From a virus, in IMG/VR virus record IMGVR_UViG_3300020583_000007, positions 1-38,804 of that record: DNA of 38,804 nt. One strand, written 5' to 3'. Below the pieces are notes generated by a model, which worked only from the letters and a program-made list of their open reading frames with translations, made no database searches and was not told the DNA's origin. The translations under genes and the position numbers were made by a program. Of this stretch, positions 3,097 through 38,804 are shown piece by piece (the first letter of the stretch is position 1; every line of letters starts with the position of its first letter).

Positions 3097-3115
3097 ACTC
3101 CTCAAAAAAAACGCT

Positions 3116-3645: not shown

Positions 3646-4116
3646 ATGAAAAACGCTACATACAAATTTTCAATACCGGAAGGAACGAGAATAGAATTCG
3701 CGAAGGATATAATCCAAGTTGATACCCTTTTTGCAAAATGCAAACAAAGAGGAGTGATAGTTCCTCCAATGCCTCCGGATCATTCAGATATGTATTGGGT
3801 AAGGCCAGATGGTAATTCTGAAAAAGATTTCTTTCATGCGGAATATTTAACGGAATTTATTATTTATGAACCTTTGCTTGAATCTCCGGGGATGAAAACG
3901 AAAGAAGAGATCTTCGCTCGAATCAATGAACTTAAAAAAGAAAGGAATGAATTAAAGAAAAACAAATTAAATATTAAAGCCGGTCAATTATCAATGAGCG
4001 AAACATTAAAAATCATCTCCGATCAATCGCATGCAATAAATACGAGAAATAATTTACTCATCGAAATCAAAGCTCTCAGATGGGTCTTAAATCAGCAGTG
4101 CGATGATAAAGATTAA
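3646..4116 (+). CDS. Hypothetical protein
   Basis: A 156-residue product with a beta-rich N-terminal part (residues 1-75, with VPPMPPDHSDMYWVRPDG) and a helical Lys/Glu-rich C-terminal part (residues 85-150). The ATG follows CCTAAGAA, a sequence that recurs at the ends of the purine-rich repeat units at 10963-11450. It overlaps the next gene by 14 bases. Family not recognised. Confidence 0.65.
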   Translation: MKNATYKFSIPEGTRIEFAKDIIQVDTLFAKCKQRGVIVPPMPPDHSDMYWVRPDGNSEKDFFHAEYLTEFIIYEPLLESPGMKTKEEIFARINELKKERNELKKNKLNIKAGQLSMSETLKIISDQSHAINTRNNLLIEIKALRWVLNQQCDDKD

Positions 4117-9402: not shown

Positions 9403-9405
9403 CAT

Positions 9406-9451
9406 AGGAAAAGACAGGAAATGAAAGGATGGGAAAGGAAAGGAATTTTTA
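9406..9451 (+). repeat. Purine-rich repeat unit, dispersed copy 1
   Basis: An almost cytosine-free run of GGAA, GGATGGGAAAGG and GGAAAGG words ending in a T-tract (GGAATTTTT). It lies between the ParB terminator and the leader of the gene at 9472. It has the same design as the units at 9951, 10331 and the array at 10963-11510. Confidence 0.6.
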
Positions 9452-9471: not shown

Positions 9472-9945
9472 ATGATTGATACAGAAACAAAAAACACAGC
9501 AGTAGTTGTAATTCGAATAGCATGGTTTGCGGTTGCTTTGATAATGCTCAGCATGTATGGCTGTCCTTTATATCGCGTTTATTCGGCCCGAAAGGACGGA
9601 GAAGCCAAATTAGCAGAGGCTCAATCATCGAGAGAGGTTGCAGTTGCCGAGGCAAAAGCAAAGATGGAATCATCTGCTCTTTTAGCTCAGGCAGATACGA
9701 TCCGCGCTCATGGAGTGGCTAGATCCAATCAGATAATTGGAAAGAGCCTCCAGAACAATGATGCATATATACACTGGCTTTGGGTTGATGGATTGGAAAA
9801 AAATCAGAATGCAGTAATTTATGTTCCAACGGAAGCAAATATTCCGATCATGGAAGCAAATAGATTCAGAGGGAAAGACCCCCGGCCAGCAAAAAAAGGA
9901 TCTAAAGACGAAACGGAAATCGAAGTTCCAAAAGCTGAAGAATAA
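9472..9945 (+). CDS. Small SPFH/prohibitin-tail-like membrane protein of phage type
   Basis: A 157-residue product from ATG 9472, with leader ACTCACTTAAAACAAAAAAC. An N-terminal membrane helix (about 10-28) is followed by YGCP, then a long Ala/Glu helix (REVAVAEAKAKMESSALLAQAD, residues 54-75), KSLQNNDAYIHWLWVDGLEKN and VIYVPTEANIPIMEAN. These segments match the small phage proteins annotated as membrane protease subunit (stomatin/prohibitin-like), which correspond to the C-terminal part of SPFH proteins. They may protect or organise host membrane proteases. The longer upstream frame (from 9232) lies inside the ParB gene and is not used. The family is recognised with good confidence. Confidence 0.75.
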   Translation: MIDTETKNTAVVVIRIAWFAVALIMLSMYGCPLYRVYSARKDGEAKLAEAQSSREVAVAEAKAKMESSALLAQADTIRAHGVARSNQIIGKSLQNNDAYIHWLWVDGLEKNQNAVIYVPTEANIPIMEANRFRGKDPRPAKKGSKDETEIEVPKAEE

Positions 9946-9950
9946 TTTTA

Positions 9951-10013
9951 AAGAGGAGAGGTGCTGAATGGAGGTAAGTGGAATCGAAAGATATGGAATG
10001 GAAAGGCTTTATT
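9951..10013 (+). repeat. Purine-rich repeat unit, dispersed copy 2
   Basis: Begins AGAGGAGAGG like the array units and ends GGAATGGAAAGGCTTTATT. It fills the spacer before the gene at 10036 and is followed by an AAAAACGCTATG leader. Confidence 0.6.
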
Positions 10014-10332: not shown

Positions 10333-10393
10333 CAGACGGGAGCGGAAAGGGATGGAGGGCTTTGGAAAGGAGATGAAAGGAAAGGTTTTTTTT
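10331..10393 (+). repeat. Purine-rich repeat unit, dispersed copy 3
   Basis: GGGAGCGGAAAGGGATGGAGGG through GGAAAGG to a run of T, in the spacer between 10332 and 10420. It has the same design as the array at 10963-11510 but lacks the GCCTAAGACATTT end. Confidence 0.6.
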
Positions 10394-10419: not shown

Positions 10420-10962
10420 ATGAAAACAATCGGAGTAAGAATCAGAGGCACTCAGCCTCTTTTGCAACACAAAATGTCATCAACTGAGGAAGCTCAGATG
10501 AAATCCAAAGTGAAACAATCCATCGGCCAGAAGAAAGGTGATAATCCGGAGGATTACTTATATCTGCATGAAGGAATCATTTGCCAGCCTTCCGAGCATA
10601 TTTATCAGGCCATTGTAAAACGTATGTCCGGATACAAGATCCAGGGCCAGGGAAAGAAAACCTATAAAGACATGGCAAAGGGCTGCATTACCATTTTCCC
10701 TGAATTTATCCCGCATGAAAATCCTAATTGGGTTGTTGACGAAAGGACGGTTGTTATTCCTTCAACAAAGGGAAGGATCATGCGTAAGCGTCCTCGCTTT
10801 AATGAATGGAGCCTTACCTTTACGATTAAGGTGATAAACGATTTTATGCCGGCTGAAGTCATTAAATCGGCCCTGGAGGATGCAGGACGCGAAGGGGGGA
10901 TAGGTGATTACCGTCCTCGATACGGATTATTTGAAGTGACTCATTTCCATGAAAGAGATTAA
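10420..10962 (+). CDS. Conserved phage-type protein ending in a GIGDYRPRYG motif
   Basis: The 180-residue product opens with VRIRGTQPLLQHKM and closes with REGGIGDYRPRYGLFEVTHF. This beginning and end (a strand, then a small LLxH turn; a glycine-rich loop, then RPRYGxFxV) is familiar from phage proteins of unknown function that often sit among recombination or early genes. The KRPRFNEWSLTF segment near residue 126 also fits. A ferredoxin-like, RAMP-type fold is possible but unproved. The start has an AAAAACGCTATATG leader. Confidence 0.6.
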   Translation: MKTIGVRIRGTQPLLQHKMSSTEEAQMKSKVKQSIGQKKGDNPEDYLYLHEGIICQPSEHIYQAIVKRMSGYKIQGQGKKTYKDMAKGCITIFPEFIPHENPNWVVDERTVVIPSTKGRIMRKRPRFNEWSLTFTIKVINDFMPAEVIKSALEDAGREGGIGDYRPRYGLFEVTHFHERD

Positions 10963-11510
10963 TAGAGGAGAGGAGGGCAGAGGTATAGAATGAAGTGGAG
11001 AGCAATAGTGAGGATTGGACAGGAAAGGAACGGAGAGGCTTTTTTACAGCCTAAGAAATTATAGAGGAGTGGAAGTAATAGGAAATGACGGGAGAGCAGA
11101 GCATAGGAGAGGAAAGGTTTTATTTTTAGCCTAAGACATTTTAGAGGAGGGGATCTGAATCCGGATTGGAAAGCAGGGGAGTTGAAGGGAAGGGAGAGGA
11201 AAGGCTTTATTTTTAGCCTAAGACATTTGAAAGGAGAGGAAGGAAATGGAGCGCAACGGAACGGATTGGACTGGCACGGAAAGGTTTTTTTATTTTGCCT
11301 AAGACATTTTTGGGGACAGGTTAGGATGTGCTTGGAATGCAGAGGAAAAGAAAGGAGAGGTTTTATTTTGCCTGAGACATTTTTGAGGTCAGGACAGGAA
11401 TGAAAGGGAGGGCAACGGAGAGGAATGGATTTTATAGCCTAAGAAATTTTACCGGATTGGATGGAAAAGGAGTGGAAGGGAGAGCATTGGAAAGGAAAGG
11501 TTTTTATTTA
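10963..11510 (+). repeat. Array of seven degenerate purine-rich repeat units, no gene
   Basis: Seven tandem units lie at about 10963-11061, 11062-11142, 11143-11228, 11229-11310, 11311-11384, 11385-11450 and 11451-11510. Each has a purine-rich stretch built from GGA, GGAGAGG and GGATTGG words, then GGAAAGG or GGAGAGG, then a T-tract, and in units 1-6 a conserved end close to GCCTAAGACATTTT. The purine parts differ from unit to unit while the ends are conserved. Frames open through the array are compositional shadows. Several stretches (for example GGATTGGACTGGCACGG, 11264-11280) could form two-layer G-quadruplexes. Confidence 0.75.
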
Positions 11511-11522
11511 ATGAGAATCATA

Positions 11523-11843
11523 ATGAATAAGGAAACAGAGACAGAAAAACTTTTAAAAAGCGCAAGCCTTGTTTCAATGGTATATGCGGATATGTCGGCA
11601 AAGAAATTTTTTAGTAAATTATTGCCGTCACGAAAAGAACACAAGATATTTGATCATCATAAATTCAAAGCAATCCGGGAGCTTAGATGCATAAGCCGAA
11701 CGGAACTGATGAATGCTGCTGATTTGACATTAGCGCATATCTCCAGGCTTGAAAATGGGAAATGCAAAGATCCAGGCATTTCAATAGTTGCAAGAATTGC
11801 AGAAGCATTGGATGTTCCAATAGAATCACTTTTAACAAAATAA
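11523..11843 (+). CDS. XRE-family helix-turn-helix regulator
   Basis: A 106-residue product from ATG 11523 (ATG 11511 is an alternative). Residues about 48-106 form a Cro/C1-type HTH: FKAIRELRCISRTELMNAAD, LTLAHISRLENGK, then ISIVARIAEALDVPIESLL. It probably represses or activates genes of this element; candidate sites are the TAATCAGC repeats at 17955-18013 and near 38260. It directly follows the purine-rich array. The family is clear; the target sites are inference. Confidence 0.85.
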   Translation: MNKETETEKLLKSASLVSMVYADMSAKKFFSKLLPSRKEHKIFDHHKFKAIRELRCISRTELMNAADLTLAHISRLENGKCKDPGISIVARIAEALDVPIESLLTK

Positions 11844-12972: not shown

Positions 12973-13858
12973 AAATTTAGTTTTCAAAGGAGGCGGTGTT
13001 CGTGGCAGAGCCTATGCCGGTGTTATTGAAGTATTGGAAGAGAATAAACTGCTGGATGATGTCCGATCTGTTGCAGGGACCTCAGCTGGAGCGATTACAG
13101 CCTGTTTACTCGCCCTGAGGTATAATGCGAAGGAAATTACTTCGATCTCCTCAGCAATGGATTTTCCTTCATTCCTGGACAAGAAAAACTATTTCCGGAT
13201 CTTGACTAAGTTCGGGATCTATTCCGGAGATGCTTTCCTGGAATGGATGGAAAGTTTAATCAAAAGAAATATAGGTCACAATAACGCAACATTTAGGGAT
13301 CTATACGATTGGTGCGGAAGAGATCTCCATATTTTCGCAACCGATCTGAATACGAATACGCTGAAACGTTTTTCTACCCAACAAACTCCAGAGATTTCCA
13401 TAGCTGAAGCGGTCCGGGCTTCGATGTCAATTCCTTTTTTCTTCAAAGCATGGAAATTCTCATATTCTCTTCCGGATGATCATCTTTATGCTGATGGAGG
13501 GATCATGTATAATTATCCTCTGACTGCGTTTGATCAGGACGGAAAACCAAATCCTGAGACAGTTGGTTTCTTTCTGGATAACCTATCATCACCATTGACA
13601 AATAACAAGCTTAGATTCAATCATCCTATCAAGTTTACAAAAGCAGTACTTGCTTCCCTGGAGGAAGCTCAGAGTATCAATTTTGAGAATGATCCGGAGG
13701 AGCTGAAGAGATCTTGTGTTATTGACGCAATGGGGATCTCCGCAACTGATTTTAATCTGACCGAGAATGATAAACGGATCTTGCATCAGTCCGGAAGAAG
13801 ATACACATTACAATTCTTAAAAAACAATGAATCGGAATTTGGATTGAATAATGACTGA
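12956..13858 (+). CDS. Patatin-like phospholipase
   Basis: A 300-residue product. The three patatin motifs are present and in order: the oxyanion loop GGGVRG (residues 12-17), the nucleophile elbow GTSAG (41-45, Ser43) and the DGG containing the catalytic aspartate (Asp180). This Ser-Asp dyad hydrolyses acyl esters of phospholipids. There is no signal peptide, so it should act on the inner leaflet or on virion lipids. ATG at 12956 or 12959 starts the protein right before the first strand; the longer frame from 12806 is an overlap artefact. In a phage it could aid lysis, membrane remodelling or virion lipid turnover. No nucleotidyltransferase lies nearby, so a CBASS effector is unlikely. Confidence 0.88.
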   Translation: MMRKIKNLVFKGGGVRGRAYAGVIEVLEENKLLDDVRSVAGTSAGAITACLLALRYNAKEITSISSAMDFPSFLDKKNYFRILTKFGIYSGDAFLEWMESLIKRNIGHNNATFRDLYDWCGRDLHIFATDLNTNTLKRFSTQQTPEISIAEAVRASMSIPFFFKAWKFSYSLPDDHLYADGGIMYNYPLTAFDQDGKPNPETVGFFLDNLSSPLTNNKLRFNHPIKFTKAVLASLEEAQSINFENDPEELKRSCVIDAMGISATDFNLTENDKRILHQSGRRYTLQFLKNNESEFGLNND

Positions 13859-18065: not shown

Positions 18066-18380
18066 ATGTTATTAACGCAAAATGAGGATATGATTTTTGA
18101 CAGAGTGACAAATTTTCTCGCTGTATTTTTCGGGATTCTATTCAGTTTACACATGGTTTCCTCCGGAAATTCCCCTTTTCAACATCATATTTTTATAAAT
18201 CAGTTGCAGACTCCTTATATACATCATCCGTTTATGACTGATTTAACCGTTTACTTTTTTCATTGTGTGATTGCTGCATGTACAACGCTGGTAATAAAAG
18301 TATATGGGACCAAAGGACTCATTAAGCTGAAGAAGTGGAAAAAAAGTAAATCGGCTCCCAAACATCCCCGCACCAAATGA
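18066..18380 (+). CDS. Two-helix membrane protein, possible holin
   Basis: A 104-residue product. Hydrophobic segments at about residues 13-34 and 60-80 flank a His-rich loop, and the C-terminal tail is strongly basic (KLKKWKKSKSAPKHPRTK). Two helices with a basic tail is a holin-like plan, and the endolysin is the divergent neighbour, but virion membrane proteins look similar. Overlaps the next gene by four bases (ATGA). Confidence 0.6.
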   Translation: MLLTQNEDMIFDRVTNFLAVFFGILFSLHMVSSGNSPFQHHIFINQLQTPYIHHPFMTDLTVYFFHCVIAACTTLVIKVYGTKGLIKLKKWKKSKSAPKHPRTK

Positions 18381-21103
18381 GCGAATCCTCAACATACCAA
18401 ATTCAGCGTTTAGGACTTGTCGCAACAAGCGAGAGGAAGCTTAAACCTGGAACGGAGTATGATAAACTTTTCCCTAAGCCAAATCTGAAAGATAAAATTG
18501 TCAATTCCAATGGGACGGTCTATAAAACCGTTGTCGAGATGGAAAAGATAGTTGATGAAACTCTCGATCAGACAGCGAAGATTGCTCCTTTATTGAAAGA
18601 TAAGGACCTGGGAACTACTTGCCGGAAGATCTGGAATTTCATTTATGATCATATTCAGTATGTTCCGGATGAGGATGGACTTGAACAGCTCCGTGAACCG
18701 GCCCGACTCTGGTATGATCGTAAAACAGGAGGAGATTGCGATTGCATGGCAATCATGGGAAGCTCTATCCTCTCGAATTTAAAGATTGATCATAAGCTCC
18801 GCATTACTGCTTACTCCGGAGGATGGCAGCATGTTTATATTACTGTCCCTCTTCCAAACCGTCCCGAAGAATTTTTCATCATTGATTGCGTAGTTGATAA
18901 ATTCAACTATGAGAAACCTTACTCCAGAAAATTCGATCATAAAATGGAAGCAAATACTTCATTAGCAGGAATTCCCATCGCACGTTTGAGCGGTGTTCAA
19001 AATTCGACTATCAATAATTTTGATGACGTTAAGAAAGTTCTCTCCGGATGTCATTTTGATAAAATGGATGCCGGCATTGATAACATGGCCGATGCAAACG
19101 GAAATTTAAGAGGTCCGGACCCTCTGAATGATTCTCCTCTTATGCAAGCGATTTATCAGCATTTACTTCAGACCAGGGAAGCAGCTTCGAAGAATCCGGA
19201 ATCGCTTTCAGTTGTTGGAGGAGCAGAGAATCATTTGAAGATGCTCGATTATGCTATTAAGGCATGGAATACTCCAAACCGTCAAAAAGCACTCGATGCC
19301 CTGGAAGCTGAAGAAGATCGTTGGAACAAGTCTGAAGGAATCGGATGCGCTGAGGACATGAATGATTATTATGTTCCTGGAATGGGTCCTGCTCATTTCG
19401 AAGCAGGAGCGGAGTATGATGAAGATCCGGAATATCAGGAAGTACTTGCCGGCCTGGGAAGATTCAGCCTTAAAAAGATAGGCCAATCTTTTTTCAAAAC
19501 AGTAAACAACGCTGTCAAAACAGCAGTTACGGTAAATAAAAAAATCATTGCAGCAGCGAATAAAGTGAAAAATTCGGTTGTTGCAGATGTGAAGAAGGTA
19601 GGAAAAGAAATCAGTGCCGGCGCAAAGATCGCTTTGACAAAAGCGAAAGAGTTTGCAAAAAAAGCCGGTGCATTACTGAAGAAATTCCTGATCATGTCAA
19701 ACCCGCTAACTCTTTTGATGCGGATTGGTGTACTCCTCTTCATGAAGGAAAATGTATTTTACATCGCTCAGAAATTGCTTCCTGCTCTTCTTACTGAAGC
19801 TGAAGCTCTGAAGAAAGGTGTACCTCATGATCTTTGGATGAAATCAAAAAATGCTCTGGATAAAGTTGCCGGCATTTTTGAGGACATTGGAGGAAAACGC
19901 GGAAAGCTGGAGAATGCAATTAAGACAGGACGGGCCAGCAGAAAGGCAAGTCTTGCCGGTATTGATTCCCTGGGCGAACCTTACACGGTTGCAACGACAA
20001 TCATTGCAGCAGCTGGAGTTCTTCTGAAGATGATTTCTTTGATTAATTCAGCCGGTCTTTCAAACAAAGATTATCATGCAGCAACGCAAGCTCATCGTGT
20101 TAGACGCAGACGCATAGTTGTCGCGCCTCCTCAAGCTCCAGTTGATGACTCGGGAGCGACAACAAACGGACTTGGTGATGATACCTCTGATGCAGGGACA
20201 GATGCGGGAACTGATTCCGGGACTGATTCCGGGACTGACTCCGGAACAGATACTTCAACCGATACAAGCGAAGCAACGGGAGATGGATCAGATGTTGCGG
20301 ATAACGTGCCGGCAGATGAAACCAAACACAAGGGATTTTTAGCCCGGATGTGGGCTGCTATCAAGAAATTTTTCACTCGTCACAAAGCAGAGACTCCAAT
20401 CACTGATGTTCAATCAATGGTTAAGAAAGAGCAGGGAGATTCTTCAACGATGGCTGCTCATGATGCTGCAAAATCTGCTGCTCTCGATGCAAAGAATGCA
20501 GCTGATGCAGCTGCAACTCAGGCTGAAGCTGATTCAGCTGCTGATACCAGCGATCTTGATAAGCTTTCAAAGGCAAGCGAATTAAGAGAAGCAGCTACAA
20601 AGGCAGATGATGATTATACAAAGATCGCTGATGTTGCGGATAAAGTTGATGCAGCGAATGCAGCCGGTGATTTGGCTGATCAGACTCCGGATGATCCAAC
20701 TCTTAAAGCTCGTGCTGATCAATTGACAAATGCAGCTGATACAGCGAACTCCCTTTTAAAATCTTTCGGATTAGATCCGATCAATCTTTCAAGTGAAGAA
20801 AAAGCTGGAGGAAATGTTGCGAAGAAAAAAGAACCTGAGGGAGGAGTTTTTCAGGATCTCGGAAAATTCATCGTTGATAATCCCGGAACATCTGTATTGC
20901 TCGGAATAACTGCAACAGCTGCTATTATTCTTGCATTCCCCGGTCCGAGAAAAGCGGTTGTTGATTTCTTGACTCCAGGAAAAAAACAAGCTCGTCTCAA
21001 TGGAACAGGATGCATTCAGCAACTCGATGGACCTAAGAAACGCAAAAAAAGGAAAACCAATTTTTCCGGACATAAGAAAGTCCGCAAAGTGGCATTAAAA
21101 TAA
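18377..21103 (+). CDS. Large transglutaminase-like, membrane-anchored late protein
   Basis: A 908-residue protein. Residues about 60-190 resemble the transglutaminase-like cysteine-protease fold: GGDCDCMA with Cys121, QHVYI with His152 and IIDCVVDKF with Asp170 form a plausible triad. Residues 365-435 are amphipathic and Ala/Lys-rich, followed by hydrophobic segments (about 440-475 and 540-560). A tetrapeptide repeat [AS]GTD occupies residues 606-629, then an Ala/Asp-rich helical stretch (680-800), a membrane helix (about 845-865) and a basic C-terminus. First large gene of the late block. It could mature or cross-link virion proteins, or be an entry protein. The domain call is moderate, the role inferred. 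Confidence 0.6.
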   Translation: MSESSTYQIQRLGLVATSERKLKPGTEYDKLFPKPNLKDKIVNSNGTVYKTVVEMEKIVDETLDQTAKIAPLLKDKDLGTTCRKIWNFIYDHIQYVPDEDGLEQLREPARLWYDRKTGGDCDCMAIMGSSILSNLKIDHKLRITAYSGGWQHVYITVPLPNRPEEFFIIDCVVDKFNYEKPYSRKFDHKMEANTSLAGIPIARLSGVQNSTINNFDDVKKVLSGCHFDKMDAGIDNMADANGNLRGPDPLNDSPLMQAIYQHLLQTREAASKNPESLSVVGGAENHLKMLDYAIKAWNTPNRQKALDALEAEEDRWNKSEGIGCAEDMNDYYVPGMGPAHFEAGAEYDEDPEYQEVLAGLGRFSLKKIGQSFFKTVNNAVKTAVTVNKKIIAAANKVKNSVVADVKKVGKEISAGAKIALTKAKEFAKKAGALLKKFLIMSNPLTLLMRIGVLLFMKENVFYIAQKLLPALLTEAEALKKGVPHDLWMKSKNALDKVAGIFEDIGGKRGKLENAIKTGRASRKASLAGIDSLGEPYTVATTIIAAAGVLLKMISLINSAGLSNKDYHAATQAHRVRRRRIVVAPPQAPVDDSGATTNGLGDDTSDAGTDAGTDSGTDSGTDSGTDTSTDTSEATGDGSDVADNVPADETKHKGFLARMWAAIKKFFTRHKAETPITDVQSMVKKEQGDSSTMAAHDAAKSAALDAKNAADAAATQAEADSAADTSDLDKLSKASELREAATKADDDYTKIADVADKVDAANAAGDLADQTPDDPTLKARADQLTNAADTANSLLKSFGLDPINLSSEEKAGGNVAKKKEPEGGVFQDLGKFIVDNPGTSVLLGITATAAIILAFPGPRKAVVDFLTPGKKQARLNGTGCIQQLDGPKKRKKRKTNFSGHKKVRKVALK
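20192..20263 (+). repeat. In-frame 12-bp tandem repeats encoding [AS]GTD
   Basis: About six copies of a 12-bp unit close to GGGACTGATTCC encode AGTD, AGTD, SGTD (three times) and TSTD within the 908-residue late protein. The two to three central copies are nearly identical, so copy number can vary by slippage. The encoded region is an acidic flexible linker. Confidence 0.75.
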
Positions 21104-21143
21104 TTCACAGTTTTCAATTAATCAAATCAAAAACAACAAACAA

Positions 21144-21770
21144 ATGTCAACAAAACCCAAACCACACAAGACCAAAAAGGCCAAAAAGAAAGGCAAGAAA
21201 GGTCTGGCAGGAGCTGAAAAGATGGCTGCTGTTAAAGCCGGAATGAGTGGCGAAGTTACCAGACCCATTGGTGCAGTATTGGGTTTGATTTCAGCTTCCG
21301 CTCTCGGATACGGACTCGACATGATTCCTGGAATGCAGGTCGATGAAACTAATGCAGCATTCCAGCCTCTCACACTTGTTAAACCAGCCCTCATGCTCGG
21401 AGCAGGAGTAGGTTTGATTTATGCCACGCATGGCGATAAATCAGCCGGCGCATCATTCGTAAACGGCCTCGGTTGGGGTATGGGATTCGGCGGTGCTGTC
21501 AGCGGTTTTAAAGTCTTCGTTAAAAAAGACATTTTTGCCGGCCTGGGAGCAGCAGATGATGAAGTAAGTAAGCAAATTGCCGAACACAAAAAGGCTGCTG
21601 ATTATTACCAGAACAAAGCCAACGATCTCTCGAAGATGATCGAAAAAAACAAGTTCAAAATTGAACTCCCTGCTCTGGAAGAGCGTCCTAATTCCGAAAA
21701 TGCATTCAAAGGAACAGGCGCAACAGAACACACGAGCGCAATGAATTTGAACGCAGCTGATTACGTTTAG
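21144..21770 (+). CDS. Glycine-rich membrane protein, probable virion membrane component
   Basis: A 208-residue product. The N-terminus is extremely Lys-rich (residues 4-24), followed by Gly/Ala-rich hydrophobic segments (about 40-60, 80-97 and 104-125), then a helical charged region (140-170) and a polar tail. A basic N-terminus beside small-residue membrane helices fits a protein that lines a virion membrane and touches DNA. It lies directly before the candidate capsid gene. Family not recognised. Confidence 0.55.
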   Translation: MSTKPKPHKTKKAKKKGKKGLAGAEKMAAVKAGMSGEVTRPIGAVLGLISASALGYGLDMIPGMQVDETNAAFQPLTLVKPALMLGAGVGLIYATHGDKSAGASFVNGLGWGMGFGGAVSGFKVFVKKDIFAGLGAADDEVSKQIAEHKKAADYYQNKANDLSKMIEKNKFKIELPALEERPNSENAFKGTGATEHTSAMNLNAADYV

Positions 21771-21840
21771 TCAATTGCAAAGAGTGTAAACCAAGCAACA
21801 ATTCACAAATTAATCAATTAAATTTTTAATCAAAATCAAA

Positions 21841-22566
21841 ATGGATCAGAACACACAATCGTTACTGCGTGATGCAGATGCCCTGATGGGAATCGGATAC
21901 GCAGACATTACCAAGACAGAAAATCTGCTTGGACAGATCATGTCTCTTCCGACAACCGGAGAGCAGACCGCAGCATTCCAACAGGTTCTGCGTAAGGGAC
22001 AGCCCCATATTGCTCCTTCCGGAGGTCACACAGGACGCGATAAAGCAGCAATGCGTATCGGAATGCTTCCTCCTGACATTCAGAAAGGATTGACTGAAAA
22101 ACGTTTGCAGCTTGTAGATTCCTTTTACTATGCAGTAAAAGTTGCTAACGCTGTAAACTCAGTTCGTATGCTGCTTAACACAGATACAAAAGCTCCCGGA
22201 GTTGGAAACATCGCTTTCCAGAAATTCGATAAAGATCAGTGGTTCCTTTGCACACATATCGGACTTACCTCCGGTGTTGATGCATCTTCCCTGAATGCTT
22301 CTTTCGGAGTTATTCCGATTGCCGTATCCAACGGTGATTTCGAATTCAAAGCAAACGGTAAATATTTGATGCCAAAAGATACCTCCCTGGCTATCTTCAA
22401 CACAACAAACCGTACTGATGTAGACCAGGGTGTGTATGAACTCGATTCACCAAAATGGATCGAACCACAGATTGATATTATCATGGACCTGCGTTTCTCC
22501 GAGAACACAGTTGCCAACACCAATCTGAAGTTCCTCATGATCGGACAAACAGTTCAGCCGTACTAA
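21841..22566 (+). CDS. Candidate major capsid protein
   Basis: A 241-residue soluble protein: a helical N-terminal third (residues 1-105) followed by beta-rich sequence (GNIAFQKFDKDQWFLCTHIG, FGVIPIAVSNGDFEFKANGKYL, WIEPQIDIIMDL), no membrane segment and ending QTVQPY. All eight arginines use CGT (seven) or CGC (one), while neighbouring genes use AGA, AGG and CGG often; this suggests selection for high expression. The gene is followed by a structured spacer. Position, length and codon choice fit a single-jelly-roll major capsid protein. I recognise no family motif, so the call is inference. Confidence 0.5.
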   Translation: MDQNTQSLLRDADALMGIGYADITKTENLLGQIMSLPTTGEQTAAFQQVLRKGQPHIAPSGGHTGRDKAAMRIGMLPPDIQKGLTEKRLQLVDSFYYAVKVANAVNSVRMLLNTDTKAPGVGNIAFQKFDKDQWFLCTHIGLTSGVDASSLNASFGVIPIAVSNGDFEFKANGKYLMPKDTSLAIFNTTNRTDVDQGVYELDSPKWIEPQIDIIMDLRFSENTVANTNLKFLMIGQTVQPY

Positions 22567-22571
22567 ACGGT

Positions 22572-22668
22572 TTCCCGGAAGCTCCGGAACGGGTTTAATA
22601 GCGTTAATCCCTTTCCGCTTTCGGAAATAGGTCAATTCGCTGGCTGTCTTAGGACAGTCAGCGATAAA
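22572..22668 (+). promoter_or_regulatory. Three hairpins in the spacer after the candidate capsid gene
   Basis: Stem-loops lie at about 22572-22589 (TTCCCGG/CCGGAA with one bulge), 22612-22627 (TTTCCG with CGGAAA, loop CTTT) and 22638-22663 (CGCTGGCTGTC with GACAGTCAGCG, loop TTAG, one G-T pair). The last is followed by ATAAACCTTTTT and may terminate some transcripts. Such structures would favour capsid mRNA over downstream mRNA, or protect its 3' end. Confidence 0.6.
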
Positions 22669-22703
22669 CCTTTTTACAAACAATACCAAATCCAAAAAAA
22701 TTC

Positions 22704-23111
22704 ATGGATACTCCAAAAGTAAATTCAACCCTCCGGTTTACAAAATACCAGATCTTCCCTATTGTTATTGCAGGGGCAGGACAAGCAACATCTCTTCAGA
22801 ACGCAACAACCGATCGCAATTATCAAAAGGTAAAAGGCATTGGTATTACTTGTTCTGATCAGTTCGCAGAAACAAATGCCATATTTACGAAATTCGAAGT
22901 TAACCGGAGAGAGATTTACCCTAATGGCTGGGAAATCAAAATGAATACAACCGGCCAGGATGTAGGCGTAAATGATCGCTATGATGAACGGGTTGATGAA
23001 GATGCAGCCAATTCAGTAGTTGATGTGACTGTCCAGGACAAGAGCGCAGCCGGCACAGTTTATCCTTATACCGTAAACGTTTACTTATTACTTGAAACTC
23101 CTCTCAGTTAA
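22704..23111 (+). CDS. Beta-rich structural protein, related to the next gene product
   Basis: A 135-residue protein, mostly predicted strands. It shares a plan with the 228-residue protein at 23152: an opening KYxxFxI-type strand with a Gly-Gln turn, a central VxGI-type strand, a Pro/Gly/Arg-rich middle and a terminal YTVNVYLLLE strand aligning with MTVKVYLRG. This suggests two paralogous jelly-roll-type minor capsid or penton proteins. Inference from pattern and context only. Confidence 0.5.
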   Translation: MDTPKVNSTLRFTKYQIFPIVIAGAGQATSLQNATTDRNYQKVKGIGITCSDQFAETNAIFTKFEVNRREIYPNGWEIKMNTTGQDVGVNDRYDERVDEDAANSVVDVTVQDKSAAGTVYPYTVNVYLLLETPLS

Positions 23112-23151
23112 TAGTTTGATTTTTTAATTGTATTAATTTAAAAATCACGCT

Positions 23152-23838
23152 ATGAAAACGAGAACGAGAGTAAAGTATTTAGTTATTGATATACCCGTTC
23201 CCGCTCAGGGAACGGGCCAACCCATTAAATTCAGTCAGAAGATTGATGAGGATCTTTTGATAGTTGATGGATATTCCGTTACTGAAGAATCTCCTCCTCA
23301 GGGAACATTGAATTATAATACTCCGGTTGGAGGGCCATTCGCTCCGGGAACAGTAATTACAGGAGTTACCAGCGGAGCAACTGCAATCGTTATTCTGGAT
23401 CATGTTCCCGGATTCGATATTTACGCTACCTCCGGAACGTTTCAGATTGGTGAAACGATCAATGGAGCAATAGGCCAGACCGCAATAGTAAGTGCCCCCG
23501 GAATGAGACTCATCAATCCAGTTGCTCCAGCTCCAATTGGAAGATTATCCTTATCCTTTAATAGCAAAGCTTCAAATCCTATCTTGATGACGGTATTCAC
23601 CGATAATCCGAGAAGGAAAAAAAGAGGTTACACTTTCGGAAGATTGATCGAACCTGTTAAAGGAGGAACGTATTTCGAAGGCTATTACATTGATCAGCGT
23701 CCCATCATTGGAGTTGCAGTTCCCATGACTGTTAAGGTATATCTCCGAGGAGTACAGGAAGTTGCTGAAACAATTATCGAGGAAGAGAAGAAAGAAGTAT
23801 CTCCTGAAGAAACTCCGGAAGAAAAAACAGAAGCTTAA
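23152..23838 (+). CDS. Beta-rich structural protein with an inserted GETI-type repeat domain
   Basis: A 228-residue protein. It has the same start and end as the 135-residue protein before it, but residues about 55-110 carry an insertion (APGTVITGVTSGATAIV, then GTFQIGETINGAIGQTAIV) of a kind common in phage fibres and decoration proteins. The C-terminal 25 residues are acidic (EEEKKEVSPEETPEEK). ATCACGCTATG sets the start. Possible penton or spike-base protein. Inference. Confidence 0.5.
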   Translation: MKTRTRVKYLVIDIPVPAQGTGQPIKFSQKIDEDLLIVDGYSVTEESPPQGTLNYNTPVGGPFAPGTVITGVTSGATAIVILDHVPGFDIYATSGTFQIGETINGAIGQTAIVSAPGMRLINPVAPAPIGRLSLSFNSKASNPILMTVFTDNPRRKKRGYTFGRLIEPVKGGTYFEGYYIDQRPIIGVAVPMTVKVYLRGVQEVAETIIEEEKKEVSPEETPEEKTEA

Positions 23839-23848
23839 ACATTGAACG

Positions 23849-24349
23849 ATGAACGATAAATTTCTAATGGATTTTATTGCCCTTCGAATGAAGGAGATGG
23901 ACTTTGAAAATTATACTTTCAAACCATTGATCGTTAATGTCCCCGTTGTTTCTGGAAATCCATTTTTGCAAATCAATATTCAGAACGAATATTATTACCT
24001 GGTTTCAAAAACAGTTCCCGCAACCTTAGCGATTGTTTCTGATCAGGAATTGCAGAATGCAGATGAATCAGCAGCATTTGCAAATTACAATTACGCCAAT
24101 CAGCGTGAATTTACCGGAAACGTTACGATAAGCGCAACCGGCGCAGCATTCATTTTGGAATTCATGCGTGTTATTCCGCGTATCAAATTGACTCCTCATG
24201 ATGTTGATGTTCTCTCTGAGCAGCAATTGGAAGTGATTGCACACTTCCAGGAAGAAAAGAAAGAACAAAGGGGAAGATACAGCAAGATCTCCAGGCATTT
24301 CAAGCCTATCGCTCATTATTCAAACTCATTCCGCAAGGAAAAACGATAA
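23849..24349 (+). CDS. Hypothetical late protein
   Basis: A 166-residue protein: a beta-rich core (residues 20-115, with VNVPVVSGNPFLQINIQNEYYYL and FTGNVTISATGAAFILEF) and a basic helical C-terminus (KKEQRGRYSKISRHF). Its place among candidate capsid genes suggests a minor virion protein. Family not recognised. Confidence 0.55.
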   Translation: MNDKFLMDFIALRMKEMDFENYTFKPLIVNVPVVSGNPFLQINIQNEYYYLVSKTVPATLAIVSDQELQNADESAAFANYNYANQREFTGNVTISATGAAFILEFMRVIPRIKLTPHDVDVLSEQQLEVIAHFQEEKKEQRGRYSKISRHFKPIAHYSNSFRKEKR

Positions 24350-24406
24350 ACGCAAAATAAAAACTATGCGTTCTCAATTAACAATTAACCTAAATCAAAA
24401 AACGCT

Positions 24407-25528
24407 ATGAAAACACCTGAAGAAATTTACCAGGACTGCCCTGTTCTAAAGCAGATCAAAAAACGTTTAATCGAAAGCGAAGCAATAGCAGCTGCTGAAA
24501 ATGAGAAACGTTCAAAAAAGCCGGTTCCCTCCGGTATGAGAGCATGGAAACAAGTTCCTGCTCAGCATTTCCGAGTCACTCATGTTTTAAGTAAAGGTTC
24601 CTGGGAGAAAGTTGCTTTCTTGCCTCAGCCTGGATCTGCATTTGAGGAAACTCTTATGGAGATCGAAACGCAATATGAACCCGATGCTCTGAAGATTGAA
24701 ATTTATGGAGGTTCAAAAATTACGAAGAATGGCAATGAGGATAAACACACTTGCTATTTGAAAAAGGGCCTTGAAAAGACGGAAGAAAAAGAAGAGGGAA
24801 AAGAGAAAGAAAAGACCGATGCCCTGGCCGGAACAATTGATGAGATCAAAAATCAACTTGCATCTCTCACTAAAAGCGGAGAAGGAATTTCCTCTTCAGA
24901 CAGCGGAGCGATGGCTTTGAAGTTTAAGGACCTGGAGCATACTTATGCAATGAGTCAAAAGGAGTTAAAGCATGAGCGGGAACTTGATAAGAAAGATCAG
25001 ATTATTGCGGATCTTACCGATGAGATCAATGATTTAAGACAAGAGATCCTCGATCATGATGCTGAGATCGGAAACGCAGCAGATCTGCTCGAAAAGAAAA
25101 TAGCTCCTAAGCCAATTGAAACCCTTCTCACCGCAGCAATTGAAAAAGCTGCTTTAGGCATTGTTAAAACCTATCCTAAGCTCCTCACAGTTGGTTTCGG
25201 TCTTAATGCTCAGCAGATCGCTGAAATCATGGCAGACGGTCAAAGAAACATTGATTCAGGTACAGCCGGCGATGCTTCTTTCTCTGAAGCTTCCGGAGAA
25301 GAAGAATACAAAGGTTTCGATCCTAAACATGCTGAGGCATTGAAAACCATTCACGCTTTCTGTAAATCACTTTCTTTCAGTGAATATCAGGTTTTATATA
25401 CTCTCCTCACTTTCTTGGTTTCCGATGAATCTAAATTGATCATGAGCAGACTTACAGATCTGATTTATTTCACAGGGAAGATCCTGGAGCGTGAAAAGGA
25501 AGAGGCAGGAAAAACAGAAGCAGTTTAA
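24407..25528 (+). CDS. Coiled-coil late protein with a C-terminal helical module shared with the next gene
   Basis: A 373-residue protein. The N-terminal part (1-115) is mixed, then a Glu/Lys-rich stretch (120-140), a long coiled coil (about 165-225, KKDQIIADLTDEINDLRQEI), a hydrophobic helical region (240-275) and a C-terminal module (about 308-345) where LKTIHAFCKSLSFSEYQVL aligns with MKAITAIMKKLSYSDIQLL in the 60-residue protein at 25562. Probably a virion assembly or scaffolding protein. AAAAAACGCTATG sets the start. Inference. Confidence 0.55.
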   Translation: MKTPEEIYQDCPVLKQIKKRLIESEAIAAAENEKRSKKPVPSGMRAWKQVPAQHFRVTHVLSKGSWEKVAFLPQPGSAFEETLMEIETQYEPDALKIEIYGGSKITKNGNEDKHTCYLKKGLEKTEEKEEGKEKEKTDALAGTIDEIKNQLASLTKSGEGISSSDSGAMALKFKDLEHTYAMSQKELKHERELDKKDQIIADLTDEINDLRQEILDHDAEIGNAADLLEKKIAPKPIETLLTAAIEKAALGIVKTYPKLLTVGFGLNAQQIAEIMADGQRNIDSGTAGDASFSEASGEEEYKGFDPKHAEALKTIHAFCKSLSFSEYQVLYTLLTFLVSDESKLIMSRLTDLIYFTGKILEREKEEAGKTEAV

Positions 25529-25561
25529 GCAATCGAAAAATTAACCATAAAAAATAACGCT

Positions 25562-25744
25562 ATGCCAGTTACAAAAACGTATAATTTAAATATTACTCAG
25601 GATTCAGATGAAAGATGTTTGAATACAATGAAAGCAATCACAGCTATCATGAAGAAACTGAGTTATTCCGATATTCAATTGCTTGCAAAAGCAATCCAGG
25701 AAAAACCTGAATTTATTAATACTGCACGAGCTGCATTAACATAG
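25562..25744 (+). CDS. Sixty-residue protein homologous to the C-terminus of the previous one
   Basis: Its residues 23-55 match the C-terminal helical module of the 373-residue protein at 24407. A free-standing copy next to the fused copy suggests that the two bind each other or the same partner. AAATAACGCTATG sets the start. Family not recognised. Confidence 0.6.
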   Translation: MPVTKTYNLNITQDSDERCLNTMKAITAIMKKLSYSDIQLLAKAIQEKPEFINTARAALT

Positions 25745-25750
25745 AAAAAT

Positions 25751-26650
25751 ATGGAAGAGCTTCAGCATGAATCCCCGGTAGTTTACAGAGAAGAGAGCCA
25801 CAAATCCGATACCACAATTGGAGATGCGGTTTTGTTTTTGGGATTAGCTGGAGGTCTTATCTGGCTGGGAAAAAACTGGTATGATAATTACACTGCTCAG
25901 CAAGCTTCCGGAAGATTAGGAATCAGTACAGCTGCTCAGGCAGCTTCAACGCTTTGGAGTTGCAAACATTGGTATAGCAATGATTATGATACGCCTATCC
26001 AGGTTGCCAAAGAGCTTGCTGAGCAGAAAATTCCCTTTGCAGACGTTTCCAAAGAATTCGATGCTCAGGGACATGGAAACTTAGAGGATTTTCTTGATTT
26101 TCTCGGAGCAGTAAAGAAAACCGAATTTTTCAATGCATTGAATTTAGGTGATACCACTCCAGGTAAATCCCCTACAAATGCAAAGAATCAATTTGATACG
26201 ACTAAAAACATTGTCGTTGTTTATGCCAATGCTCCAGCCCATATTCGGAAGTCCCCTAAGATTTTAGGATCGAGTGTTCTAAGAGCTGCTGCTTCATCTA
26301 TATTAGATCCTTCTGTCATTTTTAGCGCACTTACGCTTAATACTTCAACAATAAGGACTGATAATATCATTAAAGAAGCAAAGGATATAAAATCAGGTGA
26401 ATTCTTAGGTATCCTTACCGGCAATCATCAGCTCTATACCGGAACGAATTCAACCGGAGGCACTCTTTTTTATGAATTTACCGGAATTGTTTCCGGTCTT
26501 GGAACGAAAAAAATGTGGGTTGCAGCTGAATTTGTTCACTTGGAAAACTTCCAGACTAAAGAAGTTGTAAATACGCTCATGCACAAAGAAATTGATTCGA
26601 ACAATGCGCTAATCGTTACAGCTGATGATTATAATTCAGCTGTTTCTTAA
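25751..26650 (+). CDS. Membrane-anchored late protein
   Basis: A 299-residue protein with a membrane helix near residues 25-43 (DAVLFLGLAGGLIWLGKNW), a helical middle (55-135) and a beta-rich C-terminal domain (145-285; IVVVYANAPAHIRKSP, GEFLGILTGNHQLYTG, KMWVAAEFVHLE) that resembles an SH3-like layout. The acidic N-terminus precedes the helix, so the bulk probably faces one side of a membrane. Likely virion membrane or entry protein. Family not recognised. Confidence 0.55.
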   Translation: MEELQHESPVVYREESHKSDTTIGDAVLFLGLAGGLIWLGKNWYDNYTAQQASGRLGISTAAQAASTLWSCKHWYSNDYDTPIQVAKELAEQKIPFADVSKEFDAQGHGNLEDFLDFLGAVKKTEFFNALNLGDTTPGKSPTNAKNQFDTTKNIVVVYANAPAHIRKSPKILGSSVLRAAASSILDPSVIFSALTLNTSTIRTDNIIKEAKDIKSGEFLGILTGNHQLYTGTNSTGGTLFYEFTGIVSGLGTKKMWVAAEFVHLENFQTKEVVNTLMHKEIDSNNALIVTADDYNSAVS

Positions 26651-26672
26651 TTTTCACCTAAAACAAAAAATC

Positions 26673-27194
26673 ATGTTTTTATCCATTCCTCACAGAGCAT
26701 ATATTTTAAAGAACGATACAGCTGCTTATTCCCTTTTAAATGGGAAATTGGTAAAAGAAAGGAGACTATCTAAAAAGGGAACAATTATTTCCGGAGTGGT
26801 TCAAAATCTGAAGAAAGATCAAAAAGATCCTGATGTACTTTATTTGCATGTTGATCAGAATCTAAAAAATTCAAAAGGTCAGCCTATTAAAGAAGAAATC
26901 CCATTGTATTATAGTCTATCGGATGTTCAATATTATATTCCTTCAGCTCAGTCGAGTCTCCCTCCAGCTCATTTCGCAGATCCTTTGCATACGAAATATG
27001 TTCTTGCAAAGGATTATATTGCAACTAATCCTCTCACTGGCGGTAAGGTTCCTTTTCATGCCGGCATGGTCCTTACAAAAAGAATCCCTAAGAATGCATT
27101 GATGCTCGATGGAGAACAGGCCCTTCATCTGCATGATGATTTTAATATGGGATATGTTTTCCCAACCTCATTAATGAAGCGATTCGGAATTTAA
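26673..27194 (+). CDS. Hypothetical late protein
   Basis: A 173-residue product from ATG 26673 (leader TTCACCTAAAACAAAAAATC). Beta-rich and basic, with YYIPSAQSSLPPAHF in the middle and a C-terminal domain with His and Asp (ALHLHDDFNMGYVF). The frame open from 26625 overlaps the previous gene and is not used. It ends three bases before the transglycosylase gene. Family not recognised. Confidence 0.55.
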   Translation: MFLSIPHRAYILKNDTAAYSLLNGKLVKERRLSKKGTIISGVVQNLKKDQKDPDVLYLHVDQNLKNSKGQPIKEEIPLYYSLSDVQYYIPSAQSSLPPAHFADPLHTKYVLAKDYIATNPLTGGKVPFHAGMVLTKRIPKNALMLDGEQALHLHDDFNMGYVFPTSLMKRFGI

Positions 27195-27197
27195 GCG

Positions 27198-27893
27198 ATG
27201 GTAGATCTGATATATATAAACCTCATCCCGGACCTTTCTGAGCAGTATCTTTTCTCAGAGAAGGTCCGGGACGTTGCTAATAGGTTACAGACGAATCCGG
27301 ATTGGCTTATGCAAGTCATGAAAGCGGAATCTGGCCTAAGTGCGAGTATTCGTAATACTTTTGCTCCTGCAAAAGATATAGACGGAAATGTGGCTTATGC
27401 AACCGGACTTATCCAATTCATGCCTTCAACGGCCAGGGCACTCGGTACAACAACCTGGGATCTCGAAAAAATGTCTCGGGTTGATCAGATGGAATATGTT
27501 TACAAATATCTGAAGCCATACACCGGAAATCTAAAATCCTATTTTGATGTTTATCTGACTGTCTTTTTCCCGGCTGCAATTCCTCATTCAACGGAAGATA
27601 ATTGGGTATTTGAGACAAAAGGATTATCAGCAGAAAAGATTGCTAAGGCCAATCCTACAATGGATATTAATAAGGATGGGAAAATCACAATGGCTGAATT
27701 CAGGCAATATTTACAAAACACTGTAAAGAATCCAACGATTTATGAACGGGTTTTCGGTGCAGCTGTCACGGTAGTTGATACAGCAAAAAAAGCAGTTCAA
27801 ACCGTTGAAGCAAATCCGACTGCTTCAATAGCTGTTGGAATAGGCGTTGCCGGCATAGGAGGTTATTTTGTCTGGAAATATTTCATCAAATAA
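27198..27893 (+). CDS. Lytic transglycosylase with EF-hand and C-terminal membrane anchor
   Basis: A 231-residue product. Residues 20-110 form an SLT-type domain: MKAESGLSAS with catalytic Glu44 and ATGLIQFMPSTARALG (68-83). Residues 156-167 (DINKDGKITMAE) are a textbook EF-hand loop, with D1, N3, D5, G6, I8 and E12 in place, so calcium probably binds. A membrane helix lies at about 208-228, followed by lysine. The order (enzyme, calcium site, linker, C-terminal anchor) suits a virion membrane protein that cuts peptidoglycan during entry, as transglycosylases do in PRD1-like phages. Enzyme call strong; virion location inferred. Confidence 0.88.
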   Translation: MVDLIYINLIPDLSEQYLFSEKVRDVANRLQTNPDWLMQVMKAESGLSASIRNTFAPAKDIDGNVAYATGLIQFMPSTARALGTTTWDLEKMSRVDQMEYVYKYLKPYTGNLKSYFDVYLTVFFPAAIPHSTEDNWVFETKGLSAEKIAKANPTMDINKDGKITMAEFRQYLQNTVKNPTIYERVFGAAVTVVDTAKKAVQTVEANPTASIAVGIGVAGIGGYFVWKYFIK

Positions 27894-27922
27894 ATTAATA
27901 CTCACAAACTAAAAAACAAAAA

Positions 27923-29299
27923 ATGGAAAATACCTATTTAATAAAAGCAGTTGGAGCAATCAGCAGCTCCATTGTAAACCGATCAGATTTTTTCTTTGCC
28001 CTCCGGAGCATGGATCAAACCGGAGTAATTATCATTGACGGTGTTCCCTATGATGTTTCCACGTTGGATACTTCTGAAGGGAACAATGCAGCCAGCGCAA
28101 ACGTGCAGCAGCTTGATTCAATCGTTGCGGATACTTATGTATCTCATGGCCTTGTCACTCCTTATGTATTGACTCCAGGATCTTCCATCGTTATTCAGAT
28201 TAACATTACGAATACAGGTGCAGCGATGACAATTAATCCTGATGGCCTGGGAGCAATTCCTGTTAAAATTAACGGGGCTGATCCGGCTGCAAATACTTTC
28301 ATCGGAGGTCAGACTTATGTGATGAATTACTCCGGAACGGTGTTTACTCCTCCTTCCCCTTCAATCGTACCAAGTTTGATTCCGAAAGATGTGATTGATC
28401 TTTCAACAAATCCTCCTTATCCTCCTTCGAATTTCGGAGATGTTCTCCGTGTTACTGTTGCCGGTAAAATTGGAGGCGGTTCCGGAGTTTCTGCAAACGT
28501 TGATGATCAAATCACTTGCTGGTTTAAAAATACTGGAGGAAGTCAGGCAGCTGTTGGATCTTACTTCACAGTTCAACCTTCAATAACCGATGTAAATGCT
28601 CTTATTGGAGTTGAATCAGCAGCAAGATCAGCAGCCGACATGACTCTTTCCGGAAGAATTTCAGCCCTCGAAGGAGCAGTTGATTTCTCTCAGGGAGGAA
28701 ATTCATTCGGAGCAAATGCAATTCTCGGAACGAATGATAATTTCGATCTTATTTTCAAAACGGACAATACTGAAATTGGCCGTATCCTCAGAGGAGGAAA
28801 TTGGGGAATAGGCACAAATAATCCTCACGGCGCTTTAGATGTTCGTGTATCGCTTGTATCAGATAATTTCGGTATCCTGGGAGGAACTGGAACGGCTTTC
28901 CGTATCAATGATAACTCACTTACCGGAACGCTCGATGGAACAGGATTCGCTTCCGTTATTCAGGGTATCCATCAAATGATCCTCAATGGAAATGATGCCG
29001 GAAACGTTGTCCGTTTAAAAGTTATCGGATCTGCATCCTCCGGAGTAAGCACAATCGAAATCAAGGATACCACAGATACTAATTATTTCATGGCAATCAA
29101 TGATGTCGGAAGAATTGGAATCGGAGTGAAGGCTGCAAATGCTTCATGCATCATTGATATTGTATCCACTTTGGGATTTGGTTTCCCTGCGATGAATACA
29201 ACGACAAAGAATGCAATTCCTTCCCCGCGTGTTGGATGCTCGGTTTATGATACAACCTTGCTTGCGATTTCAACATGGAACGGAACTACCTGGGCTTAA
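27923..29299 (+). CDS. Spike or fibre protein, probable receptor binder
   Basis: A 458-residue beta-rich protein with many Gly, Asn and Thr and no membrane segment. Residues 85-145 contain short strands with GADPAANTFIGGQTYVMNY, like domains in phage fibres, and the middle has a coiled segment (GVESAARSAADMTLSGRISAL). The end, MNTTTKNAIPSPRVGCSVYDTT then STWNGTTWA, is a common terminus of Bacteroidota phage fibre proteins. A terminator follows. It is the best receptor-binding candidate; no tail genes lie nearby. Confidence 0.72.
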   Translation: MENTYLIKAVGAISSSIVNRSDFFFALRSMDQTGVIIIDGVPYDVSTLDTSEGNNAASANVQQLDSIVADTYVSHGLVTPYVLTPGSSIVIQINITNTGAAMTINPDGLGAIPVKINGADPAANTFIGGQTYVMNYSGTVFTPPSPSIVPSLIPKDVIDLSTNPPYPPSNFGDVLRVTVAGKIGGGSGVSANVDDQITCWFKNTGGSQAAVGSYFTVQPSITDVNALIGVESAARSAADMTLSGRISALEGAVDFSQGGNSFGANAILGTNDNFDLIFKTDNTEIGRILRGGNWGIGTNNPHGALDVRVSLVSDNFGILGGTGTAFRINDNSLTGTLDGTGFASVIQGIHQMILNGNDAGNVVRLKVIGSASSGVSTIEIKDTTDTNYFMAINDVGRIGIGVKAANASCIIDIVSTLGFGFPAMNTTTKNAIPSPRVGCSVYDTTLLAISTWNGTTWA

Positions 29300-29313
29300 A
29301 CCCTGAATAAAAC

Positions 29314-29341
29314 ACCCCTGGATTTTTCCAGGGGTATTTCT
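29314..29341 (+). terminator. Intrinsic terminator after the spike gene
   Basis: ACCCCTGG (29314-29321) pairs perfectly with CCAGGGGT (29328-29335), six-base loop, followed by ATTTCTTATC. Confidence 0.78.
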
Positions 29342-29384
29342 TATCTTTATCGCTCAAACAAAACAATCACTTAAAAACAACGCT

Positions 29385-29621
29385 ATGAACAAGAAGGAAA
29401 TTGAGGCAAAAATGCTGGATGTGCTTACAGCAAGAAACAAGGCTGAAGCAGTCGTAAAACAATGCGAAGCTCAGGCAAAGGCACAGCAAAAAATTGCTGA
29501 TACGAATAACGGGGCATATCTTGCCCTGGAGGAAATTTACCGCTCGATGCCGGCTGATGCTCCTGAAGAAACAAAAGCAGAAACAGAGGGTGAAAAAAAG
29601 CCTTTGGAAAAGGTAGATTAA
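29385..29621 (+). CDS. Small coiled-coil protein
   Basis: Seventy-eight residues: an Ala/Lys/Glu-rich helix (residues 2-52) and an acidic disordered tail. The leader TCACTTAAAAACAACGCTATG joins both leader types seen in this element. Family not recognised. Confidence 0.6.
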   Translation: MNKKEIEAKMLDVLTARNKAEAVVKQCEAQAKAQQKIADTNNGAYLALEEIYRSMPADAPEETKAETEGEKKPLEKVD

Positions 29622-29674
29622 TCTCTCAAACGCAACGAACATTTTAAGTAAACAATCTAAAACTCAAAAACAAA

Positions 29675-29950
29675 ATGGACAAAATTGATTATAATGTTTT
29701 CATCAATGGATCAAAGGTGATTCTGAAAAGCTATCATGATTTGATCGCAGTTCTTAAAAAGGATGCGAAAGAAACTGATGCAGAAATTAAGACTGCTCAG
29801 GATCTGGCTGACAGAGTAGGCGAAGGTTATGACATTGTGCCAAACGATGAAACCAAACCTTTTACTTTCCGTTATGGAAAAGGAACAATGATTTCAATTC
29901 CGTTGCCGGTCAGCGCAATTGCAAAGGTCGTTCCCGCAGCTGCAAAATAA
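29675..29950 (+). CDS. Small protein sharing a domain with the protein at 6859-7470
   Basis: A 91-residue alpha/beta protein. FINGSKVILKSYHDLIAVL and KPFTFRYGKGTMISIPLPVSAI match the central domain of the membrane-anchored protein at 6859. Here the domain stands alone. A terminator follows. The domain is unrecognised; two copies in distant operons suggest it works in more than one complex. Confidence 0.65.
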   Translation: MDKIDYNVFINGSKVILKSYHDLIAVLKKDAKETDAEIKTAQDLADRVGEGYDIVPNDETKPFTFRYGKGTMISIPLPVSAIAKVVPAAAK

Positions 29951-29980
29951 GGCTGAATAGATCTTATACTCATTAACCAT

Positions 29981-30017
29981 AAAAGGGCAACTTCTTAAAA
30001 TGTCGTTGCCCTTTTTT
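29981..30017 (+). terminator. Intrinsic terminator
   Basis: AAAAGGGCAAC (29981-29991) pairs with GTTGCCCTTTT (30005-30015), 13-base loop, with a run of six T. The downstream gene at 30035 begins soon after, so it also bounds a new unit. Confidence 0.8.
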
Positions 30018-30034
30018 CACTTAAACTAAAAACA

Positions 30035-30376: not shown

Positions 30377-30378
30377 TT

Positions 30379-30756: not shown

Positions 30757-30779
30757 TCACAATTCAAAAACGCTAAACA

Positions 30780-31211: not shown

Positions 31212-31215
31212 CGCT

Positions 31216-31917: not shown

Positions 31918-31932
31918 TTAATCCTTACGATA

Positions 31933-38771: not shown

Positions 38772-38804
38772 TATGGCCTTAATCTCATTAATGATTCTTC
38801 CCAA
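38678..38804. repeat. Terminal redundancy (right copy)
   Basis: Identical to 1-127; together they show that the molecule closes on itself. Confidence 0.9.

Follow-up and report, generated by a model that had tools for sequence, protein, structure and literature searches.

A bacterial virus recorded in IMG/VR as IMGVR_UViG_3300020583_000007 very probably carries a VIPR system written in a GGA/NN scaffold code, in which up to ten guide RNAs would be coated by the protein Vipr, pair with double-stranded DNA and likely bring about silencing. The whole 38,804-nucleotide stretch of this record was analysed and is referred to below as the window. VIPR (Viral Interference Programmable Repeat) was first described in 2026 as a system of non-contiguous RNA-guided DNA recognition thought to be older than CRISPR (PMC13142463). 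It is reported to consist of a RAMP-like protein, Vipr, and of vrRNAs made of 9–16 YNNGG pentamers and a 3′ tail, encoded in arrays adjoining vipr; the NN pairs recognise dsDNA with one target base skipped, this base being the wobble position, and competing phages are silenced (PMC13142463). The GGA/NN form is most closely described as a variant of this recently described system, and the authors of the preprint may already list GGA.

Pentamer units between the genes

Seven purine-rich units are present on the + strand at 10963–11510, just as a preliminary description of this DNA had it, and its view that they are non-coding is supported. The units occupy the gap separating two genes. The bodies of the units are composed of in-phase ANNGG pentamers. 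Distances between GG dinucleotides peak at 5, 10, 15 and so on up to 40 nt (z = 9.0 to 5.8 relative to dinucleotide-preserving shuffles), and in the same comparison distances off the 5-nt series are mostly depleted. A period-5 scan and segmentation placed the bodies of candidate vrRNAs 1 to 7 at 10964–11038 (15 pentamers), 11063–11117 (11 pentamers), 11143–11204 (12 units, two of them 6-mers), 11230–11284 (11 pentamers), 11311–11360 (10 pentamers), 11384–11428 (9 pentamers) and 11451–11500 (10 pentamers), all on the + strand. Three single bodies were delimited on the same strand, each in a gap before a gene: s1 (9404–9443; 8 pentamers) upstream of the gene for a stomatin/protease-like protein, s2 (9952–10006; 11 pentamers), which is followed by CTTTATT and the start of the next gene, and s3 (10336–10385; 10 pentamers) just upstream of vipr. 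The window therefore holds ten candidate vrRNAs of 8–15 pentamers (one with 8), located on both sides of vipr, and a scan of both its strands for runs with at least five of eight GG in phase retrieved none beyond these ten bodies. The 5-nt period, the three single units and the effector gene vipr had not been part of the preliminary description.

The information content of the A, N, N, G and G positions in the segmented pentamers is 1.37, 0.26, 0.27, 1.31 and 1.20 bits, respectively, with the segmentation score itself favouring A and GG. For this reason the letters with GG on both sides were recounted independently, which gave A 29, C 1, G 1 and T 1 (32 letters). Judged by homology to the published systems, the array is best read as a VIPR guide-RNA array, and its function is likewise predicted by homology.

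The ends of the units are less uniform than first reported. GGAAAGG, originally assigned to every unit, terminates the bodies of units 2, 3, 4 and 7, whereas units 1 and 5 end in GGAGAGG and unit 6 in GGAATGG. A T-tract does follow the units, and indeed follows all ten bodies. The spacer said to accompany units 1–6 is exact (GCCTAAGACATTTT) in units 2 and 4, reads GCCTAAGACATTT(G) in unit 3 and differs by one or two changes in units 1, 5 and 6; it and its variants were found solely between array units and are absent after unit 7. In one example (11118–11142, + strand) the tail and spacer comprise the T-tract and (A)GCCTAAGACATTTT. Units 1, 2, 3 and 5 fold best into a weak hairpin of 4–5 bp, AGGY(U)...(A)GCCU, with a stability no better than that of shuffled sequences. 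The search for related elements that had been proposed with GCCTAAGACATTTT was run as a 14-base scan and yielded chance matches only, so that relatives could not be traced through the spacer. No Rfam family matched within the array, and no near-identical DNA to the window was found in phage records.

The Vipr protein and related loci

The gene at 10420–10962 (+ strand), immediately preceding the array, encodes a protein of 180 aa predicted to bind guide RNA. Its product matched a single solved protein, chain D of PDB 36pp, 'SUSP1 Vipr protein' (phmmer E 3.7e-13, residues 1–175), as well as phrog_4652, a family of unknown function (E 1.2e-23), and in a phylogenetic tree it was placed among Viprs. 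An AlphaFold (AF2) model built from 39 aligned sequences had a mean pLDDT of 91, compared to 34 with single-sequence input. The model resembles the Csm3/Cas7 RAMP subunits of CRISPR types III and VII (lowest Foldseek E 6e-7; VIA-align Z of about 13 and rmsd of about 4 Å across some 155–160 residues), and the G-loop was located at residues 159–166 (GGIGDYRP). Homology and the modelled structure together indicate that 10420–10962 encodes a Vipr with the Csm3/Cas7 RAMP fold. Directly after the array lies a gene for an XRE/Cro-type HTH protein (11523–11843, + strand; Pfam HTH_3 and HTH_26). It may be an accessory (vap) gene for a DNA-binding protein, but in the closest relative of the locus vipr is followed by a different gene, the XRE gene not being conserved there.

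The fold bears on an earlier statement that the array is not CRISPR-like. This holds for the repeats: the units share only their ends, TRF detected no tandem repeat at this position and a CRISPR array was rejected; protein-family searches of the window turned up no Cas family, and no cas genes were seen. The guide is furthermore a scaffold of pentamers rather than a continuous spacer. The statement does not extend to the mechanism, since the neighbouring protein shares its fold with class 1 RAMPs such as Csm3 (type III-A) and Cas7 (type VII).

Comparison with the type II VIPR of SUSP1 and felixounaviruses (PMC13142463; PDB 36pp) revealed a common plan, with a small RAMP Vipr borne by a virus and vrRNAs of tandem pentamers in which GG is fixed and NN variable, several of them before and after vipr. 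The two Viprs are merely 27–30% identical. A T-tract and a weak hairpin end the bodies in the window, whereas a structured pseudoknot tail is reported for SUSP1 (PMC13142463), and the SUSP1 accessory gene has no recognisable copy in the window. The fixed letter differs as well: it is A in 29 of 32 cases in the window and in none of 30 in SUSP1, where it is a pyrimidine. The fixed pyrimidine at position 1 of the published pentamer (YNNGG, the GGY motif) is thus replaced here. The main text of the preprint speaks of GGY/NN 'or a related consensus', the latter for some types, with no mention of GGA there (PMC13142463); the A letter therefore marks a variant and does not exclude the locus from VIPR.

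By Vipr homology, 35 loci were fetched from genomes and 80 from viral contigs, and annotated phages and plasmids were added. Period-5 arrays were present in 111 of the 115 loci retrieved by homology, and also beside the viprs of SUSP1, VpaE1 and others. Among the 116 Vipr loci with a countable letter, 113 use YNNGG and three ANNGG, namely the window (A in 29/32), a Chitinophagaceae MAG (JAHEZB010000003.1, hereafter L170; 18/27) and an actinobacterial MAG contig (L175; 8/13). There thus seem to be at least two versions of the repeat code, GGA and GGC/GGT. L170 is the closest relative, with a Vipr 71% identical to that of the window and with ANNGG runs that end in GGAAAGG or GGAATGG plus a T-tract, lie between genes and include a run of three. 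Its first letter is mixed (A 18, C 5, T 3, G 1; n = 27), it is devoid of the GCCTAAGACATTTT spacer, and it has other genes around it than the window, one of them a DNA methyltransferase-like ORF. L175 contains at 3906–4010 one ANNGG vrRNA ending in TTTGGAAAGGTTTTT, a second and apparently separate GGA-code VIPR. The tree joins the window and L170 as sisters (100/100), whereas L175 falls on a separate branch among Y-code Viprs (85/91); the A/Y label needs two changes on this tree, of which the well-supported branches alone force one. GGA is not a habit of the phylum, since a Bacteroidota genome elsewhere in it (L291) uses CNNGG. Vipr is altogether rare in Bacteroidota (2 of 395 genomes), and searches of IMG/VR for relatives by ParB, by the presumed capsid protein and by single-sequence Vipr patterns retrieved none. 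In an Azospirillum plasmid (L162, 2989–3753) a pentamer run lies directly 3′ of the Vipr domain and is annotated within the same ORF.

One residue of the protein was found to track the letter. All three A-code Viprs have glycine immediately ahead of the G-loop (GxGDxRP), and none of the 36 other aligned Viprs does; when all loci with at least five countable letters are considered, the glycine occurs in 3/3 A-code and 0/113 Y-code loci. The residue preceding this RNA-binding loop, G159 in the window, is accordingly a candidate specificity residue, a lead and not a proof, because the column was picked after inspection of the alignment and only two lineages are involved. Phage phiHSIC has glycine at this position too; a clear array was not found in its genome, and its single weak run is T-coded, which, if it is a genuine vrRNA, would count against the association of glycine with A. 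We tentatively entertain, at somewhat less than even confidence, the idea that the scaffold letter is a switchable dialect, in which Viprs with the pre-G-loop glycine would accept A, and that GGA/NN arose at least twice and is orthogonal to GGY/NN.

Guide content, mechanism and alternative readings

With one frame applied to all guides of the window, the NN pairs score as codon positions 1–2 of the sense strand 17.5 bits above the next frame or strand, and randomisation of letter order within NN attained this score in 2 of 5000 trials. The pairs thus seem to resemble codon positions 1–2, which fits the published rule of a one-nucleotide (wobble) skip. When frame and strand were chosen for each guide separately, a skip of one was preferred in 16 of 18 other loci, including L170 and L175. 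In the window, with the phase free per guide, it was best by 1.9 bits for full guides and lagged a skip of two by 1 bit once the guides were trimmed of their end pentamers; this per-guide result is not significant, as it was equalled by 160 of 300 randomised sets. Skips of one and two are inseparable in the window with free phase, and for this reason the rule is weaker here than in the family: codon phase supports the one-nucleotide skip for the family and only suggests it for the window.

Searches with several of the guides, limited in extent, identified no natural target. The pattern of unit 4 had no match in two MAGs, and unit 1 had none in 195 genomes of the Chitinophagaceae family at up to three mismatches; s2 had five in the same 195 genomes at up to two mismatches against two for the reversed control, which was judged to be chance. 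In IMG/VR, part of unit 1 gave one match that fails beyond the searched part (20/30), and part of unit 4 gave none. The first genome searches were perhaps too strict, since the end pentamers may be constant and not belong to the guide. Within the window itself, the best matches at a one-nucleotide skip covered 13–15 of 16–22 positions in nine guides and 19 of 30 in unit 1. These values resemble those obtained with other spacings and fall well short of complete matching.

By analogy with published work on SUSP1 and P. fulva, the + strand would be transcribed with the co-directional gene cluster to produce as many as ten guide RNAs, each about 60–100 nt long; three would be single guides encoded in the gaps that precede consecutive genes, and the other seven would come from the array after vipr. 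Vipr would coat each guide, presumably with one RAMP subunit per pentamer, and hold the constant GG-A letters, leaving the two N bases to pair with dsDNA, with one target base skipped between NN pairs. The likely outcome would be transcriptional silencing of the genes of competing mobile elements, silencing being the likelier effect because no nuclease gene was seen adjoining vipr. The preliminary description had come close in proposing an RNA bound by a GGA-reading protein, given that the homologous RNAs of SUSP1 co-purify with Vipr (PMC13142463).

Position invites another reading of the same components, in which a decayed or repurposed VIPR uses Vipr and the leader vrRNAs to regulate the virus's own operon. 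Three vrRNAs stand directly before consecutive genes, one of them just before vipr, and the layout in L170 is alike; guides in gene leaders, including that of vipr itself, leave room for such autoregulation. We nevertheless regard it as unlikely, as the self-matches are far from complete even at their best (13–15 of 16–22 positions; 19/30 for unit 1) and the NN pairs look like coding and not like leader sequence. More improbable still is that the bodies are no guides at all and instead form a multi-site platform for a TRAP-type ring RNA-binding protein, through which the genes downstream would be regulated from their leaders. TRAP sites consist of 11 NAG triplets with 2-nt spacing, giving a period of about 5 nt, and the period of five, the 8–15 repeats and the short intergenic leaders before start codons resemble them. 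Here, however, A..GG is constant instead of NAG, with two bases free, the adjoining gene encodes a Vipr, and Viprs in more than 100 loci have this backbone beside them.

The probability that the bodies are merely an expanded, decayed pentanucleotide microsatellite or a G-quadruplex tract without any guide role is very small indeed. Although the sequence is purine-rich and repetitive, with two-G tracts separated by 3-nt loops, uniform decay would not hold three letters at 1.2–1.4 bits each while freeing two (0.26 bits), and neither the T-tract after all ten bodies nor the association with vipr agrees with such an origin. G-quadruplex formation had been suggested at the outset, together with replication and packaging signals; all three are unsupported, because none accounts for the strict 5-nt phase, for hypervariable NN between fixed letters or for the coupling to vipr in more than 100 loci. 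The array is also unlikely to be the assembly artefact that had been considered as grounds for dismissing it, since the window has an exact terminal direct repeat of 127 bp and since L170, a MAG that was assembled independently, shows the same anatomy. A VIPR system with a GGA/NN code is the reading that we prefer.

The viral genome and significance of the variant code

The copies of the terminal repeat, at 1–127 and 38678–38804, suggest that the genome is complete and either circular or terminally redundant. A DUF805b RNA motif, a cis-regulatory family, was identified at 652–686 (Rfam RF02914, 50.2 bits). The sequence AACGCTA(T/A) occurs 16 times on the + strand, 6–22 nt before ATG and in many cases with an overlap of the start codon (AACGCTATG), with sites at 3110, 7548, 10030, 10412, 14050, 15418, 15692, 16609, 24401, 25556, 29379, 31210 and others; it may serve the virus as a signal for translation start or as a leader signal. 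The stomatin/protease-like protein is encoded at 9484–9945 (phrog_11227, 4.8e-48) and has homologues of up to 79% identity in many unrelated viral contigs, as well as in jumbo and cyano-phages; the array was not found in the unrelated contigs with this protein. A patatin-like phospholipase gene (12974–13858; Pfam E 2e-35) belongs to the same gene cluster as the array. The presumed structural and late genes at 18377–33567 have almost no match in PHROG or Pfam, the exceptions being an SLT protein resembling lysozyme (27198) and an AAA ATPase (31933). The phage and plasmid kin of the ATPase are limited to one huge-phage record and Persicobacter plasmids. The virus possibly represents an undescribed, perhaps tailless, group.

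The set of VIPR systems is extended here to a small, poorly annotated virus with probable ties to Bacteroidota and with ten guides. The replacement of the pyrimidine by A, apparently in two lineages and together with a residue that tracks it, makes the reading of the scaffold by Vipr directly testable, and the existence of GGA and GGY codes suggests that mutually exclusive sets of guides could share one cell.
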